From positions 10,398,001-10,462,000 of the forward strand of contig NZ_CP069396.1 of NCBI RefSeq assembly GCF_016887565.1: a stretch of DNA of 64,000 nucleotides, given 5' to 3'. The notes beneath the pieces are model-generated. The model was not told the DNA's origin. It saw nothing but the letters and a program-made list of their open reading frames with translations, and did no database searches. Below, piece after piece: positions 17,619-30,590 of this stretch (its first letter is position 1; the number at the start of each line of letters is the position of its first letter). The stretch is from Archangium violaceum (lineage in GTDB: Bacteria > Myxococcota > Myxococcia > Myxococcales > Myxococcaceae). Both the position numbers and the translations under genes were made by a program.

Positions 17619-17667
17619 CACGCTCCCTCCCATAGCGGAAGGCGGACTTCTTTGCCTCCGCTCCCTC

Positions 17668-18171
17668 CTATTGAGGGGGCTCGGGGCCAAAGCCCGCGTC
17701 GGACGCCACCGCCGAGAAACGCCCGCCGAGCGTCCGGCCCGCGCCGTAGCCCTCACCCTCCTTGAAGGACAGCGAGAAGTCGCCGCGCGTCGGCTCGCCC
17801 GGGTTGCCGCCCTCGTCCAGCACCAGGTCGCCGTTCTCCACCGGCGCGAAGACACGCGCCGGCTCGCCCGCCGCCAGGTGCACCACCGTCGCCCGCGCGT
17901 GCCCCGACGGCGTCTGCCCCGCCAGGTCCACCTCCTTCCCCGGCTTCAGCTCCAACCCCTCCGTGTCCACGCTCAACCGCACCACCAGGTCCACGTCCGT
18001 GGCCGTGCTGCGGTAGTAGCTCACCTGCAGCGCCTGGGCGTTGCGCTGCACCTCCACGCGCGACACCTCCAGCGGGAACAGGTCCCCCACGCTGCCCGAC
18101 AGCGAGTTGTCCCCTCCACACCCCACCAGCACGCCGCACACCACCACCGCCAGGCACGCCACTCGCCTCAC
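17668..18171 (-). CDS. Small lipoprotein, unknown function
   Basis: Lipoprotein of 167 residues starting at a GTG (18171) that overlaps the stop of the upstream gene by 4 bases. Signal MRRVACLAVVVCGVLVGCG with lipobox LVGC. The mature part has beta-rich, Thr/Val-containing strands (ATDVDLVVRLSVDTEG) and ends in an acidic/Gly tail. No family is recognised. The coupling to the gene at 18168-19454 suggests the two products act together at the envelope. Confidence 0.75.
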   Translation of the reverse strand: MRRVACLAVVVCGVLVGCGGDNSLSGSVGDLFPLEVSRVEVQRNAQALQVSYYRSTATDVDLVVRLSVDTEGLELKPGKEVDLAGQTPSGHARATVVHLAAGEPARVFAPVENGDLVLDEGGNPGEPTRGDFSLSFKEGEGYGAGRTLGGRFSAVASDAGFGPEPPQ

Positions 18172-19454
18172 GGCTCCACCGCCAGCTTCACCACGCCCGA
18201 GTCCGGCGCGCGGTACGCCACCACCCGCTTGCCCGTGGACAGGAAGGCCAGCTTCGCCCCCCACCCGCCCGCGGCATCCACCAGCACGTCATTCCAGTTC
18301 TGCTCGATGAAGGCCGAGATGTGCAGCTCGTCCACGCGCGGGTCGCAGCTCTGCTCGTTGGCGCTCACGTTGTTGGAGCAGATGTAATAGGCGATGTGCG
18401 GCTCGTGATGCACGGGGTCGAAGGCCAGCGACGGGTACCAGCCGCCCGCGCCCGACTGGAACACCGGGTCCGGCTCCGACCAGGAGACGCCGTCCTTGGA
18501 GAAAGTATAGGTGAGCTTGTTGCTGGTGCGGTCCACCACCGCCACTCCGTAGCCCACCTGGCTGTCCCACCCGAGGCTCGCGCCCAGCTGCGTGTCGGAG
18601 ACGGTCTGCACCCGCAGCGCCGTCGTCCAGGTGCCGTCCGGCTTGCGGCGCTGGAAGAGCACGTTGCGGCCCCGGGCATCCGCGCTATCCAGCACCTGGT
18701 CGTGCACCAGCGCGGGCTGTCCTCCCGCCATCACCATGGAGATGTGGCCGCCATACCCCGCCTTGGTGTCGGCCGACATGGCCAACATCCTGGGGGCCCA
18801 GCTCGTCGGGCCGCCTTCGACCAGCTCGAGGTCGCTGCCCTCCCAGTCCTGCTTGCCGAACTGGCCGTTGTGCCCGTCCCGGTACGCGACGTAGGCCTTC
18901 GTGCCGTCGAAGACGATGGCGGGGTTGAGACCCACCAGGAAGCCCGAGTCCGCCAGGGCGTTGCCCGTCGGCGCGTTGTTGCTCCGGGTGGCCGGGATTC
19001 TCTCCGCCCAGCTTCCGGGCGCGTTGCGGTACGACACGGCGAGATCGCTCTGCACCCACTCAACGGACTGGTCAGCACCACCACCGAGGTAGCTCACCGC
19101 CGCCTTGCCCGTGGAGTCGTACGCCACCGACACGCCACTCACCACCTCCACCGTGGCGACGCGCTCGGGCTGCGAGGCCTGGCCGTCCTTCCACTCGATG
19201 AAGCGAATCTCGTAGTTCTTCGTCCCCGTCACGCGGCTGATGTAGGCCACGCCGACCCGGTCCTGCGGCCCCACCGCGAGCGCGATCGGCTGCAACTCCG
19301 TGGCCGTCGTGTCGAGGACGACCCGGGTGAAGGGGGACAACCCGTTGAGGGTGTCGGTGTTGTCGTCGCCGGTGCCCGCATCGGGGGGACGCGGCTCATC
19401 GGGGGTACACGCCAACGCGAGCGCCAGGCCCAGCGCCCATCCCTGCCGTCTCAT
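18168..19454 (-). CDS. Lipoprotein with sialidase/propeller-like repeats
   Basis: First gene of the leftward operon, encoding a lipoprotein of 428 residues. The start at 19454 follows AAGGAG about 8 bases upstream; the lipobox is LALAC. A short PPDAG spacer precedes repeated strands such as VGVAYISRV, AAVSYLGGG, AYVAYRDGHNG and LAFDPVHHEPHIAYY. These resemble Asp-box-poor sialidase-like or propeller blades reporting time-series data. No catalytic motif could be identified. It is divergent from the Tat-signal oxidoreductase pair, 70 bp away. Confidence 0.75.
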   Translation of the reverse strand: MRRQGWALGLALALACTPDEPRPPDAGTGDDNTDTLNGLSPFTRVVLDTTATELQPIALAVGPQDRVGVAYISRVTGTKNYEIRFIEWKDGQASQPERVATVEVVSGVSVAYDSTGKAAVSYLGGGADQSVEWVQSDLAVSYRNAPGSWAERIPATRSNNAPTGNALADSGFLVGLNPAIVFDGTKAYVAYRDGHNGQFGKQDWEGSDLELVEGGPTSWAPRMLAMSADTKAGYGGHISMVMAGGQPALVHDQVLDSADARGRNVLFQRRKPDGTWTTALRVQTVSDTQLGASLGWDSQVGYGVAVVDRTSNKLTYTFSKDGVSWSEPDPVFQSGAGGWYPSLAFDPVHHEPHIAYYICSNNVSANEQSCDPRVDELHISAFIEQNWNDVLVDAAGGWGAKLAFLSTGKRVVAYRAPDSGVVKLAVEP

Positions 19455-19524
19455 GGAGCGTCTCCTTGGTTGTGAATCAAGCAAGGACCCCATCCTACGC
19501 CAGCTGGGCTAGGCTTGGGCGTAC

Positions 19525-20145
19525 ATGGACCGGCGATCCTTCCTCCAGCGGTTGTCCTTCTTCGGTGGCGGCGTGGTGCTCCTCGGCGGCGCGGCCTGCA
19601 AGCGCGGCCCGTCCTCCGAGCCCCCCGCTCCCGCCAACACCCAGGCTGCGGCGGCGAACGACGCCTCGCCCCGCACCTTCACCCGGGCCGAGTACGCCGT
19701 GGTGGCCGCCGCCAGCGAGCGCATCCTCCCGCGCGACGAGGACCCCGGCGCGAAGGACGCGGACGTGCCCGCCTACATCGATCGGATGCTCCAGTCGCCG
19801 GAGCTCGAGCAGATGCGCCAGGACTTCATGCAGGGCGTGGCCGCGCTGGAGCGGCGCTCGCAGCGGATGTTCCAGGTGGGCTTCGCCCAGGCCACGCCCG
19901 CCCAGCAGGACGAGCTGCTCGGCCTCTTCAAGGACAGCCCCGCGGGCAGCGGCGAGGCGCACTTCTTCGAGCTGTTGATGGTGCTGACGCTGGAGGGCTT
20001 CCTCGGGGACCCGTCCTACGGCGGCAACAAGGAGCGGGTGGGCTGGAAGCTGGTGGGCTTCGACACGGTGGGCACGGTGGCCTCCGCGCCGCCCGAGGGA
20101 CATGACGGCATGAAGTGCTTGAAGACGTGCGGGAGGCACCCGTGA
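19525..20145 (+). CDS. Gluconate 2-dehydrogenase subunit 3 family protein
   Basis: Small subunit of a GMC-type dehydrogenase, 206 residues. The N-terminus MDRRSFLQRL with a following hydrophobic stretch is a Tat export signal, and GGAAC suggests lipidation. The body contains the family's FTRAEYAVVAAASERILPRDEDPGA pattern, DVPAYIDR, and LLMVLTLEGFLGDPSYGGN. In characterised gluconate 2-dehydrogenases this subunit carries the signal that exports the flavoprotein. Its stop overlaps the GTG of the flavoprotein gene by 4 bases, so the two are translated together. A cytochrome subunit is not found next to them. Confidence 0.88.
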   Translation: MDRRSFLQRLSFFGGGVVLLGGAACKRGPSSEPPAPANTQAAAANDASPRTFTRAEYAVVAAASERILPRDEDPGAKDADVPAYIDRMLQSPELEQMRQDFMQGVAALERRSQRMFQVGFAQATPAQQDELLGLFKDSPAGSGEAHFFELLMVLTLEGFLGDPSYGGNKERVGWKLVGFDTVGTVASAPPEGHDGMKCLKTCGRHP

Positions 20146-21833
20146 CGAAGGAGCCGGTGGACGTCTGCATCATCGGCAGTGGCGCGGGCGGAGCCCCCAT
20201 GGCGCTGGAGCTGGGGCGCGCGGGCTTCAAGGTGGTGGTGCTGGAGAAGGGAGCGCACTACCAACCCAAGGACTTCATCCACGACGAAATCCTCAACAGC
20301 CGCCGCAACTTCTTCATGCCGCTGCCATGGGAAGAGCCCCACCTGGTACGCCAGGGCGCGGCGGGCCGCTACGAGCGCACCAACTCCGCGTGGACGGCCA
20401 ACTGCGTGGGCGGCGGCACGGTGCACATGAGCGGCTACTTCTACCGGCTCAAGCCGGTGGACTTCCGGCTGCGCTCGACACTGGGCGCCGTGAAGGGCAG
20501 CACGCTCGCGGACTGGCCCATCTCCTACGAGGAGCTGGCGCCCTTCTACGACGTGGCCGAGGCCGAGCTGGGCGTGTCCGGCGAGGCCGTGCCCCACCCC
20601 TTCGCCGAGCCGCGCAAGGGCCCGTACCCGCTGCCACCGCTGGACGTGCACCCCATCGCCCGGGAGCTGGACCGGGTGTGCGGGGACATGGGGTGGCACA
20701 GCCTGCCCACGGCGCGAGGCATCATCAGCCGGCCCTACCGGGGACGCGCGGGGTGCGCCTACTGCGCGCTGTGCGGCAGCTACGGCTGTGAGATGGGGGC
20801 CAAGAGCGGCACCAACGCGAACCTCATCCCGGCGGCGCTGGCCACGGGGAACGTGGAGCTGCGCCCGCGGTGCATGGCGCGCTCGGTGGAGGTGGACAAG
20901 GAGGGCCGGGCCCGGAGCGTGGTGTACCTGGACGCGGACGGGGTGGAGCAGGAGCAGCCGGCGAAGGTGGTGGTGGTGTCCTGCACTGCGGTGGAGAGCG
21001 CGCGGCTGCTGCTCAACTCGGTGTCCAACCGCTTCCCGCGAGGGCTCGCCAACGGCAGCGGGCTGGTGGGCAAGAACCTCATCTTCAGCTCGTTCGGCGA
21101 GTCGCGCGCCACCTTCCGCGTGTCGAAGCAGAGCGCGGCGCGGCCGTGGCTGACGGACCCTGCGCCCTTCGTGAACCGGAGCGTGCAGGACTTCTACCTG
21201 ATGCCGGACGAGCGCTTCGGCTTCCGCAAGGGCGGGACGCTGGGTTTCATGTGGACACACCCCAACCCCATCTTCGCGGCGGTGGGGCTCGCGGGCAGCG
21301 GCAAGAACGGCGTCTTCGGCAAGGCGCTGAAGGACCGGATGCGGGAGTACCGCGACTCGCGCATCCTCCAGTTCGAGGTGTATGGCGAGTTCCTCCCCAC
21401 CCCGGGCACCTACGTGACGGTGGAGCCGGGCGTGAAGGACAAGTACGGCCTGCCCGTGGCCGGCATCACGATGGACCGCCACCCCATGGACTTCGCCGCC
21501 ACGCGCTTCCTGGTGGAGCGGGGCGAGGAAATCCTGATGCGGCTGGACCCGGACGAGCTGAAGCGCGTGGGAATCGCCGGGGAGACGACCATCCTGCAGC
21601 ACGGCACGTGCCGCTTCGGGAACGACCCGGCCACCTCGGTGCTGAACAAGGAGTGCCGGGCGCACGAGGTGCCCAACCTCTACGTGGTGGACGGCAGCTT
21701 CATGCCCACCGCGGGCAGCGTGCCCTCGACGCTCACCATCGTGGCCAACAGCTTCCGCGTGGCGCGAGGACTGGTGCAACGAATGAAGCGCAACGAGGTT
21801 CGACCCTCTCCCTCTGGGAGAGGGCCGGGGTGA
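20142..21833 (+). CDS. GMC-family FAD oxidoreductase
   Basis: Flavoprotein of about 563 residues. The start is a GTG at 20142 preceded by GGGAGG. The FAD-binding fold opens with VCIIGSGAGGAPMALELGRAG. The GMC C-terminal domain contains LQHGTCRFGNDP (catalytic His region), AHEVPNLYVVDGSFMPTA and PSTLTIVANSFR. It has no signal of its own and is probably exported folded with the Tat-signal partner encoded directly upstream. Substrate is probably a sugar or alcohol. The last ten codons (RPSPSGRGPG) lie inside a REP-like repeat, so the C-terminus is likely an acquired tail. Confidence 0.9.
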   Translation: MTKEPVDVCIIGSGAGGAPMALELGRAGFKVVVLEKGAHYQPKDFIHDEILNSRRNFFMPLPWEEPHLVRQGAAGRYERTNSAWTANCVGGGTVHMSGYFYRLKPVDFRLRSTLGAVKGSTLADWPISYEELAPFYDVAEAELGVSGEAVPHPFAEPRKGPYPLPPLDVHPIARELDRVCGDMGWHSLPTARGIISRPYRGRAGCAYCALCGSYGCEMGAKSGTNANLIPAALATGNVELRPRCMARSVEVDKEGRARSVVYLDADGVEQEQPAKVVVVSCTAVESARLLLNSVSNRFPRGLANGSGLVGKNLIFSSFGESRATFRVSKQSAARPWLTDPAPFVNRSVQDFYLMPDERFGFRKGGTLGFMWTHPNPIFAAVGLAGSGKNGVFGKALKDRMREYRDSRILQFEVYGEFLPTPGTYVTVEPGVKDKYGLPVAGITMDRHPMDFAATRFLVERGEEILMRLDPDELKRVGIAGETTILQHGTCRFGNDPATSVLNKECRAHEVPNLYVVDGSFMPTAGSVPSTLTIVANSFRVARGLVQRMKRNEVRPSPSGRGPG

Positions 21834-21837
21834 GGGT
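21804..21837. repeat. REP-like palindromic repeat, copy 2, between convergent genes
   Basis: CCCTCTCCC (21804-21812) / GGGAGAGGG (21816-21824) with a TCT loop, then CCGGGGTGAGGGT. Its reverse complement matches the repeat at 4498-4537 almost throughout. It straddles the stop of the GMC gene and lies 22 bp from the convergent kinase gene's stop, so it may also serve as a two-way terminator. Confidence 0.8.
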
Positions 21838-21855
21838 CTACCGCGGGCCCGCGGC

Positions 21856-24285: not shown

Positions 24286-24377
24286 AATCTAACCCGCGCC
24301 CCCCGTGGCCCGCCATTCACACCCGGTACAAAAGCCCGGGCGGCACGAGACGCCCGTTTTTCCTATACCCTGCGCCC

Positions 24378-25730
24378 GTGAGCCATCCCCGCTACTTCGT
24401 CCCCCATGCCGCGAGCCCGGCCGAGCCCCTCCGGCCCGACCCTTCCGCGATGGTGCACGCGGTGGACGCGTTCCGCCTGGAGAGCCGGCTCCTCGGTGAG
24501 CAGGAGTGGCTGGTGGGCACCGACGCCCTGGGAGGCGTGATCGCCGTGCCCGCGAGCGAGCGCGACAACCTGCCCGCCTCCGTCAGGGCCCAGCTGACAC
24601 ACCACGAGGTCGCCTCCGGCCGCACGCCCCGGCGGCTCTCCGCCTCCGAGCTGTACTTCTTCTCCGTCGAGCTCATCGAGCACCCGGAGGACGCGCAGGG
24701 CGTCAACGACCCGGTCTATCTCTACGGCACCCTGCTCGGTCCCTGGCCGAGCGATTTCCCGGAGCGCGTCCCGGGCCAGCTCACCGTGAGCCGCGGCGAC
24801 GTGCTCGCCGGGCTGGTGGCTGGCGGGCCCGAGGCCTTCCACTACGTGCAGGACGCGGAGAGCAGGTACGCCCCGCGCGCCTACCACGCGCTCCTCCCCG
24901 GCGACAGGCCCGAGCGCCTCGCCGAGGGCCGCGGGCTGGTGCTCGCCTATCCCGCCGTCCCCGCCGAGCTACAGACGCACAACGCCGCCAACGGTCCGGT
25001 GGTGGCACGCCTCATCCACGACGTCCTCACCCAGTTGCAGGCCTCCGCCCGTGAGCACAACGGCCCGGAAGCGCTCCGGGACATGGAGCTGCCCGTCCCC
25101 AGCCGCCTCATGGCCATCGCGGAGCTCGAGGTGCGCGGCTACGAGGTGAATGGCGACGTGGCCACCCTGCGGCGCAACCACCCGGGACTGGTGAACCGGC
25201 TCGCGGAGTGGCTGCGCCGGGAGAAGGTGAAGGTCCCCCCGGAGGCCACCGCGCCCGAGTTCCTCGAGCTCGCCCGCCGCGCCCTCGCGGCGCTCCCCGG
25301 CTGGCCGAGTGACTCCGAGCGCGCGCTCCGAGCCCTGGTGCGGCCCGGCAACGACACGCCCGCGAGGTCCATGCCCGTCACGCCCGGGGCCTCCTCCCCC
25401 GCACAGACGCCCCTCGTCCAGCGCCCGATTCCTCCTCGCGCGCCGCCCGCGCCCCCGCGCCCGAGCGACTGGATGAAGGACTTCCTCGACGCGCACACCC
25501 GCACTGGCGGTGCGAAACCGAAGCTCACCCTCGCGCAGGAGACGCCCGCGCGAGGTACGCCCTCGGTGGGCCCACCCGAGTGGATGGCCGACTTCGGCTC
25601 CGCGCCCGCTCCGGCCCGTCAGCCCTCGATACCCTCCAAGCCCTCCAAGCCGTCCAAGCCAGCCAGACCGTCCGCACCCGCTCCTACCGGGACGAAGAAG
25701 CCGGACTGGATGTCCGATTTCGAGGACTGA
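24378..25730 (+). CDS. Unknown protein with three WMxDF motifs
   Basis: Protein of 450 residues beginning at a GTG (24378). No signal peptide or membrane helix is seen and no family is recognised. The first 320 residues look globular and mixed alpha/beta. The last 130 are a Pro/Lys/Ser-rich linker carrying three copies of a short motif, SDWMKDF (363-369), PEWMADF (400-406) and PDWMSDF (442-448), the last almost at the C-terminus, with a run of SKP units between the second and third. The motifs look like linear docking sites for a partner. The gene is followed after 62 bp by the tandem vWA genes in the same direction, suggesting an operon. Confidence 0.7.
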   Translation: MSHPRYFVPHAASPAEPLRPDPSAMVHAVDAFRLESRLLGEQEWLVGTDALGGVIAVPASERDNLPASVRAQLTHHEVASGRTPRRLSASELYFFSVELIEHPEDAQGVNDPVYLYGTLLGPWPSDFPERVPGQLTVSRGDVLAGLVAGGPEAFHYVQDAESRYAPRAYHALLPGDRPERLAEGRGLVLAYPAVPAELQTHNAANGPVVARLIHDVLTQLQASAREHNGPEALRDMELPVPSRLMAIAELEVRGYEVNGDVATLRRNHPGLVNRLAEWLRREKVKVPPEATAPEFLELARRALAALPGWPSDSERALRALVRPGNDTPARSMPVTPGASSPAQTPLVQRPIPPRAPPAPPRPSDWMKDFLDAHTRTGGAKPKLTLAQETPARGTPSVGPPEWMADFGSAPAPARQPSIPSKPSKPSKPARPSAPAPTGTKKPDWMSDFED

Positions 25731-25792
25731 GCCCGGTTGCGGTGGCGGCTCTCGGGGCGATACCGTCTCCCCCCTCAGGAAAGAGGGGCAAA

Positions 25793-26719
25793 ATGGGACA
25801 CGAGAAACCGGTCGAGCCGTTTTCGGATCTCCATGTCGAGGAGGGGCGAGTGCACGCGGTGCTGCTGCACGACCCCACCGTCGAAGGCCTGGATATGGCC
25901 ATCTACATGGACGCCTCCGGCAGCATGAAGGAGGAGTACGAGTACAAGCAGCCCTCGCGCACCTTCATGGAGTGGCTGCGTGGTGCGCCCCTCAAGGAGG
26001 CCTCCAACCAGGTCGAGCCCCAGGTGCAGTGGATGCTCGAGTACCTGGCCACCAAGGACCGCAACGGTCTGCTCCGCGTCGCCTACTGGGCCTGCGGCTC
26101 CACCGGCAAGGACGTGGAGGTGATCGGCGAGCTCAAGGGCGTGGACGTCAAGTCGTACAAGTTCCCCGGCCCGAAGAACCTCGGGGGCTACACGTACCTG
26201 GCGCCGGCGATGAAGGACTACGTGCGCTACCTGAAGGAGCAGGTTCCCAAGGGAGCCCGTCGCGGGTGCGCCGTGTTCGTCACGGACGGCAAGCTGCACG
26301 ACTCGGACGAGGTGAAGGAGTTCTCGGCCCAGGTGGCGCGCGACGTCGCCGCCGGCAAGCTGCCGCGCATCAACTTCATCCTGGTCGGCGTCGGTGACAA
26401 CATCGACGAGGACCAGCTCGAGGACATCGCTCACGAGGAGTTCCCGGGCGTCGGACACCTGTGGTGCCACCGCATCGCCGCGGAGATCACCCAGGTGGCC
26501 GAGCTGGTGGCCGTGCTGGTGGATGAGACGATGACCGTCGCCGCCGGCGGCACCATCTACGACGACAAGGGCAAGGTGCTGAAGACGTACGAGGGCCGGC
26601 TGCCCGCGGTGCTCGAGTTCGACGTGCCCGAGGGCACCGAGAGCTTCACCCTCGAGGTGAACGGCCAGCGCTACACCCAGCCGCTTCCCGAAGACGACCA
26701 CGACGAGGAGCACCACTGA
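25793..26719 (+). CDS. vWA-domain protein, first of a tandem pair
   Basis: Cytoplasmic protein of 308 residues starting at 25793 (AAGAGG upstream; no signal). A von Willebrand A domain has an intact MIDAS: DASGS (40-44), Thr in the GGYTYLAPAM loop, and FVTDGK. It is followed by a beta-rich C-terminal unit ([42 protein letters not shown]). The tail is acidic/His-rich (EDDHDEEHH). vWA domains bind partners through a Mg2+ ion; here the partner may be the neighbouring WMxDF protein or metal transporter, which is inference. Its stop overlaps the next start (TGATG). It is roughly half to two-thirds identical by eye to the next product. Confidence 0.85.
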   Translation: MGHEKPVEPFSDLHVEEGRVHAVLLHDPTVEGLDMAIYMDASGSMKEEYEYKQPSRTFMEWLRGAPLKEASNQVEPQVQWMLEYLATKDRNGLLRVAYWACGSTGKDVEVIGELKGVDVKSYKFPGPKNLGGYTYLAPAMKDYVRYLKEQVPKGARRGCAVFVTDGKLHDSDEVKEFSAQVARDVAAGKLPRINFILVGVGDNIDEDQLEDIAHEEFPGVGHLWCHRIAAEITQVAELVAVLVDETMTVAAGGTIYDDKGKVLKTYEGRLPAVLEFDVPEGTESFTLEVNGQRYTQPLPEDDHDEEHH

Positions 26720-27696
26720 TGGCCGGCCACGAAGTCATCGCCAAACCGTTCTCGGACGTCCACCGGGTGGGAAACCGGGTGGTGGCCACGCTGCTGCACG
26801 ACCCGACCGTGGAGGGGCTCGACGTGGCCCTGTACATGGATGGCTCGGCGAGCATGGAAGACGAGTACGGCCCGCGGGGCGTGCTCGCCAAGCTCGCGCC
26901 GGTGAAGAACCTGGTCGAGCCGCAGATGCGGTGGATGCTCGAGTACCTCGCCAACAAGGATCGTGACGGCAAGGTGCGCGTGGCCTACTGGGCGACCGGC
27001 GACGGCAGCCAGCTCGAGGAGGTGGGCGAGCTCACCGGTCCGCAGGCCAAGGACTACCGCTTCCCGGGCCCCCGCTTCTACGGGAAGGCCACGGTGATGC
27101 TCCCGGTGCTGCGTGACTTCGTGGCTCACATGAAGCAGCAGGTGCAGGCCGGTGCCCGCCGCGGTCTGGCGGTGATCATCACCGACTCGCAGATCAACGA
27201 TGGCAACGATGTGAAGGCCTACGCCACGCAGGTGGCGAAGGAGATCGCCTCGGGCCGCCTGCCCCGGATGAACTTCGTGTTCGTCGGGGTGGGCGACCAG
27301 GTGGACGAGGAGCAGATGGAGGCCATCTCCCACGAGACCTATCCGGGCGTGGGACACCTGTGGTGCCACCGCATCGCCGACCGCATGGAGGAGATGGCGG
27401 AGCTGGTGGCGGTGCTGGTGGACGAGACGATGACCGTCGCCGCCGGCGGCACCATCTACGACGAGAAGGGCCAGACGTTGAAGAGCTACGAGGGCCGGCT
27501 GCCCGCGGTGCTCGAGTTCGACGTGCCCGCCACGTGCAAGTCCTTCACCCTCGAGGTGGCTGGCCAGCGCTTCACCCAGCCCATCCCCGAAGAGCACGAA
27601 GACGAAGACCACGAGGAGGAGGAGGACCACGCGCCCGAGCCGGCGCGCGCCCCCGCCGCCCCTCCAGCCCGCAAGCATCGCGGCCACGGCCACTGA
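26719..27696 (+). CDS. vWA-domain protein, second of a tandem pair
   Basis: Protein of 325 residues, a paralogue of the preceding gene and the result of tandem duplication. MIDAS DGSAS (41-45) and IITDSQ are intact. It shares with its neighbour blocks such as [36 protein letters not shown] and [14 protein letters not shown]. The tail is longer and rich in Glu/Asp/His ([14 protein letters not shown]) and ends RKHRGHGH, which looks metal-binding. Translation is coupled to the gene before (TGATG) and the ATPase start follows 11 bp later, so the three are almost certainly one operon. Confidence 0.85.
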
Positions 27697-27707
27697 CGAG
27701 GAGCGCC

Positions 27708-30506
27708 ATGTCGGAGCAGAAGAAGATCGTCCGGGTGCTCGGGCACGTCCACGGACCTGGGTGCAAGCACGACCATGCGCATGAGCACGACCACGCTCAT
27801 GAGCACGGCGAGAAGCACGTGCACGGCCCCGGGTGCAAGCACGACCACGCTCATGAGAAGCAGCACGCTCACGAGCACGGTGAGAAGCACGTGCATGGTC
27901 CCGGGTGCAAACACGACCACGACCATGCGCACGAGAAGGCGCATGTCCACGGACCTTCCTGCTCGCACGGTCATGACCACGACCACGCGCATGACCACGA
28001 CCATGGTCATGAGCATGGACCCGGGTGCAGCCACGGGCATGACCACCATCACCCGCAGTCGACCCGGCGGATCCACCCGCCCGCGCACCGGGCCGCGGAG
28101 GGTGGCGGTATCGCGCTCCAGTTGGATCTCGAGGGCACCCTACCCGGCGAGACGGACGAGGTCGGCCGCTTCCAGAAGCTCGAGGCCGCCCTGGAAGCGC
28201 ACCGCGGCATCTCCGACGTCCACCTCCGGAGGGACCTCGGCCACGCGGAGATCTGCATCCACTACCAGCCCGAGCTGGTGAGCGTGCAGCACCTGCTCTC
28301 GCTCGCCCAGAGCACCGGGGCCGTGGTGGCGGAGCGCTACAAGCAGCACACCTGGTTCGTGCGCGGCATGAACTCGGCCGACTCGGCGACGGTGATCGAA
28401 CATGCCGTCAGCCGGATCACCGGCGTCCTCTCCGCGAGCGTGGCGTACGCGAGCGAGCGTCTGGTCATCGAGTACGACCGCGAGACGCTCACGCTGAGCG
28501 ACGTGGAAGCAAACGTGAAGTCGCTCGGGTACGGGCTGGAGGTGCCCACCGCGGGCCATGCCTGCTCGCACCACGCGCACGGCGGCGGTCTGGCCCCCAA
28601 GCTCGAGCTGCCCCTGGTGGTGGCCTCCGGCGTGCTGCTCGTCGCCGGCTGGCTGGTCGAGCGCTTCGCTCCCGTCTCCGCCCTGGTCCCGACCCTCATC
28701 TGGGGCCTGTCGATGGCGAGCGGCGGCTTCTTCGCCATCCGCGGCTCGGTGCAGTCCATCCTCCAGCGCCGCATCGACATCGAGACGATGATGGTGGTGG
28801 CGGCGCTCGGCGCCGCGGTGCTCGGGGCGTGGTTCGAGGGCGCCTTCCTCCTTTTCCTCTTCAGCGCGGGCCATGCGCTGGAGCACCGGGCGATGGACAA
28901 GGCGCGCCGGTCGATCGAGTCGCTCAGCGCGCTGCGCCCCGAGATGGCGCGGGTCCGGCGAGGGGACGACATCGTCGAGCTGCCGGTGGGCGACGTCCAA
29001 CGCGGCGAGCGCATCATCGTGCGCCCGGGAGACCGCGTGCCCCTCGATGGCATCATCCGCGAGGGCAAGAGCTCGCTGGAGCAGGCGGCGATCACCGGCG
29101 AGTCCATGCCCGTCCCCAAGAAGCCAGGGGACGAGGTGTTCTCCGGCACCATCAACTGCGAGGCGCTGCTGGAGGTGGAGGTCACCAAGCTGTCCTCCGA
29201 GTCGGTGCTGGCGCGCGTGGTGGACATGGTGGCGCAGGCCGAGGCCCAGAAGGGCCCCAACCAGCGCTTCGCCCAGCGGATGGAACGGACCTTCGCGCCG
29301 CTGGTGATGGGCGCCGCGGTGCTGTTCCCGGTGGTGCTCGTGCTGATGGGCACGCCGCTCAAGGAGGCCATCCTCCGGGCGGTGTCGCTGCTCGTCGCGG
29401 CCTCGCCGTGCGCGCTGGCCATCTCCACGCCCTCGGCCGTGCTGTCCGCGGTGGCGGCGGCGGCGCGAGGCGGCGTGCTGGTCAAGGGTGGCATCTACCT
29501 GGAGCTGCTCGGGAACATCCGGGCCATCGCCTTCGACAAGACGGGCACCCTCACCGTGGGGCGGCCCCGGCTGCTCACCAGCGCTCCGGCGCAGGGGGTG
29601 ACTCGCGAGGAGCTGCTCGGCACCGCCGCGGCGGTCGAGTCGCTCTCCGCGCACCCGCTCGCGCGCGCGGTGGTGGACGCGGCGTCCGAGCAGGGCATCC
29701 AGGCCCCGGCGGGGAAGGATGTCGAAGCCATCCACGGCAAGGGCATCCGCGGCAAGGTGGGCGAGCAACCCGTGGAGGTCGGCAACCTCGCGCTCTTCGA
29801 CGGGGACAGCATCCCGCGGGAGATCTCCGCCGAGGTGCGGAAGCTCGAGGAGGCGGGACAGACCACGATGGTGGTGCGCAAGGCGGGGCGATACCTCGGG
29901 GTGCTCGGCGTGGCGGACACCGTGCGCGGCGGAGCACACCTCGTCATCCAGAGCCTCAAGCAGGCGGGCATCGAGCGGACGGTGATGCTCTCCGGCGACA
30001 ACGAGCGGGTGGCCAAATCGATCGCCTCGCAGGTGGGGATCGACGAGGCACGCGCGCCGCTGATGCCGGCAGACAAGGTCACCGCCGTGCGCGAGCTCGG
30101 CAAGCAGCACTCGGTGGCGATGGTCGGCGACGGCGTGAACGATGCGCCCGCGCTCGCCGCCGCCGCGGTGGGCGTGGCCATGGGCGGAGCCGGCTCGGAT
30201 GCGGCGCTCGAGACGGCCGACGTGGTGCTGATGAGCGACGACCTCGCCAAGCTGCCCTTCGCCCTGGAGCTCGCGCGCAAGGCCACCGCGGTGATGAAGC
30301 AGAACCTGGTCATCTCCCTCGGGGTGAGCGGCATCCTGGTCATCGCCGCGGTCCTCGGGCTCACGCAGATCAGCCACGCGGTGGTGCTGCACGAGGGCAG
30401 TACGCTCCTCGTGGTCGCCAACGGGCTCCGGCTGCTCGCGTTCCGGCCCCAGCAGTCCGCGCCCGCTCCGCAAGGGGCGGTCGGCGTGCAGCCCGCCGCC
30501 AGCTGA
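27708..30506 (+). CDS. P1B-4-type heavy-metal ATPase with His-rich N-terminus
   Basis: Membrane metal exporter of 932 residues; ATG 27708 is preceded by GAGGAG. Residues 14-115 hold five HGP[GS]C modules separated by His/Asp/Glu runs. Two HMA-like folds follow without metal cysteines: the second reads GMNSADS (220-226) where GMxCxxC is expected. The ATPase core has TGES (463-466), SPC in the transport helix (566-568), DKTGT (610-614, phosphorylated Asp 610), HP (649-650), GDGVND (807-812) and HEGST (895-899) before NGLRLL. SPC plus HEG[GS]T is the pattern of P1B-4 (CoaT/CtpD) pumps, which export Co2+ or Fe2+; Zn2+ cannot be excluded. It is the last gene after the vWA pair. Confidence 0.9.
27801..27930 (+). 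repeat. 72-bp in-frame tandem repeat encoding His-rich modules
   Basis: The stretch starting GAGCACGGCGAGAAGCACGT at 27801 recurs at 27873, 72 bp (24 codons) later. Differences between copies over the aligned part (GGC/GGT, CAC/CAT, AAG/AAA) are synonymous. The repeat is therefore old enough to have diverged and appears held at the protein level. Confidence 0.7.
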
Positions 30507-30522
30507 GACGCGGTACCCCGCA

Positions 30523-30559
30523 GACGGGGCGGGAGGCTCCCTTCGAGCCCCGCCCCGTC
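30523..30559 (+). terminator. Terminator hairpin after the metal ATPase gene
   Basis: GACGGGGCGGG (30523-30533) pairs with CCCGCCCCGTC (30549-30559), an 11-bp stem. A pyrimidine-rich tract follows (CGCGTCTTCCCCTT). It separates the vWA/ATPase operon from the deaminase gene. Confidence 0.6.
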
Positions 30560-30590
30560 CGCGTCTTCCCCTTCAAACAAGAGGCTCCCG

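Follow-up and report, generated by a model that had tools for sequence, protein, structure and literature searches.

Three conserved W-[M/Q/L]-x-D-F motifs in the predicted disordered tail of a protein encoded in a four-gene cassette with two vWA proteins and a P1B-4-type ATPase

Here, we describe a four-gene cassette in the 13.2-Mb genome of Archangium violaceum and, in particular, its first gene, which encodes a protein with three copies of a short peptide motif. The window, i.e. the whole stretch of DNA that was analyzed, comprises 64,000 nucleotides (G000:C1:10398001-10462000); related genome records carry the names Myxococcus, Pyxidicoccus, Corallococcus, and Myxococcaceae MAG. The cassette spans 24339-30579 on the forward strand, with approximate limits taken from the breaks in blastn alignments. 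The tail gene (24378-25730, +) has a GTG start and a stop codon at 25728-25730 and encodes a 450-aa protein (the tail protein), in which a folded N-domain (residues ~1-322) precedes a disordered tail rich in Pro, Ala, Ser, and Lys (residues ~323-450). Two vWA genes and an ATPase gene follow on the same strand. vWA1 (25793-26719; 308 aa) combines a vWA domain with a beta-sandwich and has an Asp/His-rich C-terminus; vWA2 (26719-27696; 325 aa) is 61% identical to vWA1 and has a His/Glu-rich stretch near its C-terminus, and its start overlaps the vWA1 stop (TGATG). The last gene (27708-30506) encodes a heavy-metal ATPase of the P1B-4 type with a His-rich N-terminus and the SPC/HEGST signature.

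The first-pass annotation of this DNA had reported three WMxDF-type motifs in a tail, and our analysis confirmed them within the 450-aa ORF. Motif 1 (SDWMKDF; 25464-25484, +) usually has the form [SDG][DE]WMxDF[LIV]xxH in the family. Motif 2 (PEWMADF; 25575-25595, +) has the family form xxW[MQL]xDF, and motif 3 (PDWMSDF-ED; 25701-25727, +, with PDWMSDF itself at 25701-25721) has the form KP[DEA]WMxDF plus one or two residues. The motifs had been placed at 25466-25727, a span with an exact end and a start that is 2 bases late, and the last one was said to end at the C-terminus; it is indeed C-terminal, but ED follows PDWMSDF before the stop codon.

Using a tail-protein profile built from 11 orthologues, we found 45 orthologues, of which 41 are complete. 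All 41 full-length proteins have the same W, D, and F at each of the motif sites. M is also invariant in motif 1, as are K, P, and M in motif 3 (41/41 each); at the corresponding position of motif 2, M is found in 25, Q in 14, and L in two of the 41. The residue preceding W is D or E in motif 1 (41/41) and motif 3 (40/41), and the x position varies, with mostly polar residues at motifs 1 and 3. Motif 3 ends one or two residues short of the C-terminus in 41/41 proteins, and the spacing from W to W is variable (28-51 and 25-50 residues). Mean pairwise identity among these orthologues is 40.8% in the linkers (minimum 14.6%) and 67.5% in the N-domain (minimum 31.5%), compared with 100% at 11 core positions, which were picked after viewing the alignment columns and exclude the M of motif 2. 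Because W, Y, and C are absent from the 2,478 linker residues and F occurs only seven times there, the aromatic residues are almost confined to the motifs. Among the four orthologues broken by contig ends, two retain the full set of three motifs on their second piece, a third has two motifs before the break, and the fourth stops before the motifs. The orthologue in G130, a genome from another family of the same phylum, has kept all three motifs with an N-domain that is 42% identical and lies in the same operon. Profile hits discarded as weak and partial were those in G071:C7, G170, and G184 for the tail profile and in G186 for the vWA profile; the one at G071:C7:613783-614184 (L118) matches the profile weakly at its tail end, has two internal TAG stops, and is perhaps a remnant or mere composition. 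The annotation had named conservation in orthologues as the check on its view that conserved short motifs are repeated in a disordered tail; the motifs are conserved, with W, D, and F unchanged in 41/41 orthologues against linkers of 40.8% identity, and that view stands. We conclude that the tail is of the short linear motif type, with several copies of a conserved peptide in a region that is disordered and divergent, and binding by these copies is predicted.

When the last 130 residues were shuffled 20,000 times, 0.045% of the shuffles contained at least one W[MLQ]xDF and none contained three or more; the corresponding values for shuffles of the whole protein were 0.125% and none. A DNA pattern for [DE]WMxDF matches the host genome at three places, all in the tail gene (the reversed-pattern control matches once), and this restriction favors a dedicated partner. 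A looser DNA pattern for WMxDF began with K and mixed TGG and GGG; counting only the TGG rows, 11 sites were found, three in the tail gene and eight elsewhere. None of these eight has an acidic residue before W; the long ORFs around three of them are paralogues, and the other five are single sites of uncertain coding status. In one of these five, at L148, WMSDF lies 10 residues before the end of an open frame, most of which is overlapped by a frame on the opposite strand; with a third-position G+C of 0.88 for the opposite frame versus 0.67, we took this site as antisense noise. An internal FWMDDFATLHEVG stretch is common to three paralogous ORFs of 903-1323 aa (L145, L146); unlike the tail motif, it is present as one internal copy in each.

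The tail protein had zero matches at an E value of 1 or better in Pfam, NCBIfam, and PDB sequences and zero matches in PHROGs and PADLOC; the N-domain had zero matches among PLSDB plasmids. SUFU (PF05076) was considered as a family for the N-domain and rejected at an hhalign probability of 0.2% against 19 SUFU domains from related genomes, a comparison of profiles and not of folds in which the N-domain profile was shallow (Neff 2.3). For structure prediction with AlphaFold, the tail and vWA1 were modeled as one chain with the natural stop read through, at loci that have both in the same frame: model 1 (orthologue L013; 773 aa) includes the N-domain and had 27 alignment rows, and model 2 (427 aa) comprises the tail and vWA1 and had 86 rows. 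The blocks of the N-domain in model 1 mostly have pLDDT values of 73-94, with dips to 50-67, and those of the tail have values of 25-53, most of the tail being at ~25-35. Motif 1 forms a helix at low confidence (pLDDT ~50), in model 1 at residues 358-372 and in model 2 at residues 13-25. The tail is predicted to be disordered except for this weak helix, and the N-domain, as judged from the sequence searches, is a folded module outside known families. Fold searches with model 1 gave match lists filled by vWA domains. On contig C121 of G130, an 880-aa frame (L123:7369-10008, -) has a paralogous N-domain but no WMxDF motif, and its C-terminal part differs from the tail protein and has no Pfam match; from this paralogue, the N-domain seems to be a module that has another use too.

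The four genes are present or absent as one unit. In profile searches, the tail gene was found in 44 of 96 family genomes and the vWA pair in exactly these 44, with zero exceptions either way; an orthologue of the ATPase with at least 62% identity is present in the same 44/96, and identity does not exceed 47% in the other hits at threshold (in G018, in G009, and to a second gene of G030). Only the top-ranked candidates of an initial pass are scored in these searches, and a gene could in principle have been missed; the 96 genomes are mutually related, and we report the co-occurrence as a count, not with a p-value as proof. A sample of the phylum (195 genomes, including the same 44) added one further full match to the tail protein, that in G130. 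Because five of the sampled genera hold species with and species without the cassette, the cassette is not a single inherited block. The four genes lie in order, on one strand and one contig, in 39 of 45 genomes (38/44 plus G130). Contig breaks interrupt the order in G068, G070, G085, G088, and G095. In G030, the tail gene lies on another contig and retains all motifs, while ~1 kb of unrelated DNA precedes vWA1. In G130, the vWA profile matches vWA genes on contig C77 only, and the motif-less N-domain paralogue is on C121; this one case is in favor of the docking proposed below. Two variants of the arrangement were observed: ~2.3 kb of extra DNA lies between vWA2 and the ATPase gene in G032 and G080 (L009, L108), and three vWA genes lie between the tail gene and the ATPase gene in G102, G094, and G105 (L099, L100, L102), where the tail keeps three motifs.

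In the congeners G001-G004, the cassette is absent and the upstream kinase gene and the downstream amidohydrolase gene are adjacent (86-166 bp apart; 4/4). The blastn alignments to these genomes end at 24328-24339 and restart at 30580-30589, and the cassette is also present in G005. This is a clean four-gene insertion or loss at an empty site. The G+C content of the cassette (0.703) is close to that of the 6 kb on each side (0.711 and 0.653), and the composition therefore gives no sign of recent foreign origin. The upstream kinase gene was considered as a cassette member and rejected, because G005 is the sole other genome with an orthologue beside the cassette (93%). In 20 other genomes, the neighboring stretches that were read gave distant kinase matches only (35-42% over 182-311 aa), and in all stretches read outside G005, neither the kinase nor the amidohydrolase had an orthologue near the cassette. 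Elsewhere in the window, a second block at 17645-21855 contains ORFs at 18168-19493 (-) and 19525-20145 (+) and an oxidoreductase gene at 20115-21833 (+), which we take to be of the GMC type; the block is found in G000 and G005, and the oxidoreductase is absent from G001-G004, where blastn leaves a gap.

The two vWA proteins score 21.4 and 16.4 bits against PF00092, under the curated cut-off of 23.8, with an E value of 3e-4 for vWA1; by sequence, vWA1 matches no PDB chain at an E value of 0.01. The vWA1 model (orthologue L013) matches solved vWA domains with Z scores of 14.8-16.8 among the 50 matches listed, and the MIDAS residues DxSxS-T-D are invariant in 53/53 vWA rows (A4) and 21/21 rows (A2). 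Because the sequences are divergent and below the Pfam cut-off, the vWA assignment rests on the fold and the MIDAS; as modeled, vWA1 has the vWA fold. Beyond the vWA domain, the structural match of the model extends to the inter-alpha-inhibitor heavy chain (6fpy_B; Z 15.6, 247 aligned, rmsd 5.0) and to the Catenulispora vWA protein 4fx5 (Z 15.7, 251 aligned, rmsd 8.1), whose context is unrelated to the cassette. The vWA1 model resembles the archaeal ArnB (architecture described in PMC12852372) and the Sec23/Sec24 core in its vWA domain plus beta-sandwich, the part to which the comparison extends (8s05_A; Z 15.5, 229 aligned, rmsd 5.8); Pfam scans found no ArnA-type zinc-finger or FHA domain in the four cassette proteins. 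As described in the entry for 1pd0, Sec24 recognizes short peptides.

The ATPase scores 588.8 bits against TIGR01525 (cut-off 346.25), and SPC and HEGST are present in 44/44 of the ATPase orthologues read (G085 left out). Its first 215 residues contain 46 His in His-rich repeats, and a Pfam scan found an HMA-domain match; the DNA encoding the N-terminus (27743-28012) has a 72-base repeat in 2.7 copies followed by 18-base units. PADLOC had zero matches for the ATPase, vWA1, and vWA2. P1B-4 heavy-metal ATPases include sCoaT and CtpD and, as a further example, CzcP. SPC and HEGxT are described as conserved P1B-4 motifs, and sCoaT and CtpD have them in common with the cassette ATPase (PMC8880997). 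According to the cited parts of the same article, sCoaT is without a classical heavy-metal-binding domain; in contrast, the cassette ATPase has the long His-rich N-terminus, the HMA match, and three partner genes.

We propose that the four genes form a portable cassette for heavy-metal export in which the 450-aa protein may act as the scaffold. The three W-[M/Q/L]-x-D-F peptides would bind other products of the operon, with the two vWA paralogues as the most likely partners. W and F would insert into a hydrophobic groove, and the invariant Asp could come near enough to the MIDAS to complete its metal site. With three sites, a single scaffold could collect several vWA subunits, and the Asp/His-rich vWA ends might buffer metal, hand it to the ATPase, or tune the ATPase; the metal-handling role itself is suggested solely by the ATPase class and the His-rich ends. 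That the motif peptides bind a partner inside the cassette, the N-domain counted, we consider probable. By analogy with known vWA adaptors, the vWA proteins are the most likely partner, a choice to which we give an even chance, and we hold the scaffold with a docking tail in a portable metal export cassette to be the best overall explanation with confidence that goes about halfway. Completion of the MIDAS metal site by the motif Asp, by the same analogy, is a tentative suggestion.

Bacterial vWA domains are often discussed alongside AAA+ motors. In the MoxR-associated systems NorQD, CbbQO, and RavA-ViaA, vWA proteins with an intact MIDAS likewise serve as protein-protein adaptors; NorQD serves metal insertion, and the authors of mutagenesis studies on NorD and CbbO proposed that the sixth MIDAS ligand is an acidic residue contributed by the partner (as described in parts of PMC9976466 and PMC4660213). 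We prefer the vWA proteins over the ATPase as motif partners because vWA proteins are adaptors with such a proposed acidic ligand and the motif Asp is invariant. In the cassette, however, a linear peptide present in several copies would provide this acidic residue, and whereas the MoxR systems have an AAA+ partner, the cassette has a metal pump and a pair of vWA paralogues. No MoxR-type AAA+ gene lies next to the vWA pair, its neighbors being the tail gene and the ATPase gene in 39/45 genomes, and Pfam scans at an E value of 1 or better gave no AAA match in the four cassette proteins. Having no AAA+ protein among its four products as read from their sequences, the cassette is not a MoxR-vWA system.

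The first-pass annotation had pointed to the vWA genes next door as possible receptors of the motifs. They do belong to the same system, with the same occurrence (44/96) and a conserved order (39/45), but this co-inheritance does not single out the vWA proteins because the ATPase shows the same distribution, and AlphaFold placed no motif on vWA1 with confidence. In model 1, the N-domain folded well and vWA1 partly; in model 2, vWA1 is mostly at pLDDT 72-96, and the blocks holding the motifs are at ~50, 44, and 40. Neither of the two fusion models (L013) thus has a motif placed on vWA1 with confidence. Because single-chain AlphaFold misses many peptide contacts, this result is weak evidence against docking. 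G030, in which the tail gene does not adjoin the vWA pair, also counts against docking on the vWA proteins. A more elaborate version of the proposal, in which vWA1 and vWA2 would form a heterodimeric Sec23/24-like platform, the MIDAS metal would be the sensed or exported ion, the W..DF peptides would dock on the metal-loaded form only, and the tail, as a multivalent switch gated by metal, would bring together an adaptor complex on the P1B-4 exporter, seems to us decidedly improbable.

Alternatively, the ATPase could be the docking partner, with the motifs bound to one of its cytosolic domains (A, P, or N) or to the long N-terminal region and the scaffold thereby tethered to the pump, in keeping with orthologues distributed as those of the tail gene and with the position of the ATPase gene as the last of the operon. 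However, the ATPase would probably have to offer a basic groove to such an acidic motif, and the tail gene adjoins vWA1 and not the ATPase gene, which the extra ~2.3 kb splits from vWA2 in G032 and G080; on balance, we regard this docking as unlikely. The N-domain of the same or a neighboring molecule is a further candidate, with autoinhibition or self-assembly as the outcome: the N-domain and the motifs are in one polypeptide in 41/41 complete orthologues, and the G030 gene has kept all its motifs away from the vWA pair. Yet model 1, which included the N-domain, has no motif confidently placed on it, and the N-domain paralogue in G130 has no motif, and binding to the N-domain is improbable. 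We judge it similarly improbable that the motifs bind a housekeeping protein, such as a protease adaptor, a chaperone, or an envelope protein, or form a C-terminal degradation or targeting signal. The end of motif 3, 1-2 residues from the C-terminus in 41/41, would suit such a signal, but a general receptor should have more clients, whereas [DE]WMxDF is found nowhere else in the genome, and the motifs are retained with the cassette in a different family (G130). It is very improbable that W, M, and F are amphipathic anchors that insert in the membrane or in condensates without a specific receptor; their spacing is as on a short helix, and motif 1 is predicted to be helical at low confidence, but all three sites have an invariant D, with D or E also in front of W in 41/41 (motif 1) and 40/41 (motif 3), and L, I, or Y should be acceptable in a lipid anchor, whereas W and F never vary here. 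Finally, chance or low-complexity repeats without function would fit the simple composition of the tail, but with three motifs in 0/20,000 shuffles and a core invariant in 41/41, this explanation has a negligible probability.

Literature searches, in which most subscription journals were outside the coverage, had no description of the cassette or the motif among the matches listed; the motif strings WMxDF, DWMxDF, and PDWM gave unrelated titles only among the matches listed, and the cassette was likewise absent among those listed for vWA with P-type ATPases, heavy metals, or TerY/tellurium. To our knowledge, the link between P1B-4 pump activity and cytosolic metal is still open. Many P1B-4 pumps are described, in the cited parts of PMC8880997, without a classical metal-binding domain. 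If the proposal of a peptide scaffold that docks the vWA proteins is true, the four genes for the pump, the two vWA proteins, and the scaffold would suffice to test adaptor control of a metal exporter, and a linear-motif partner for bacterial vWA domains would be shown. Close species with and without the cassette are available for such a comparison.
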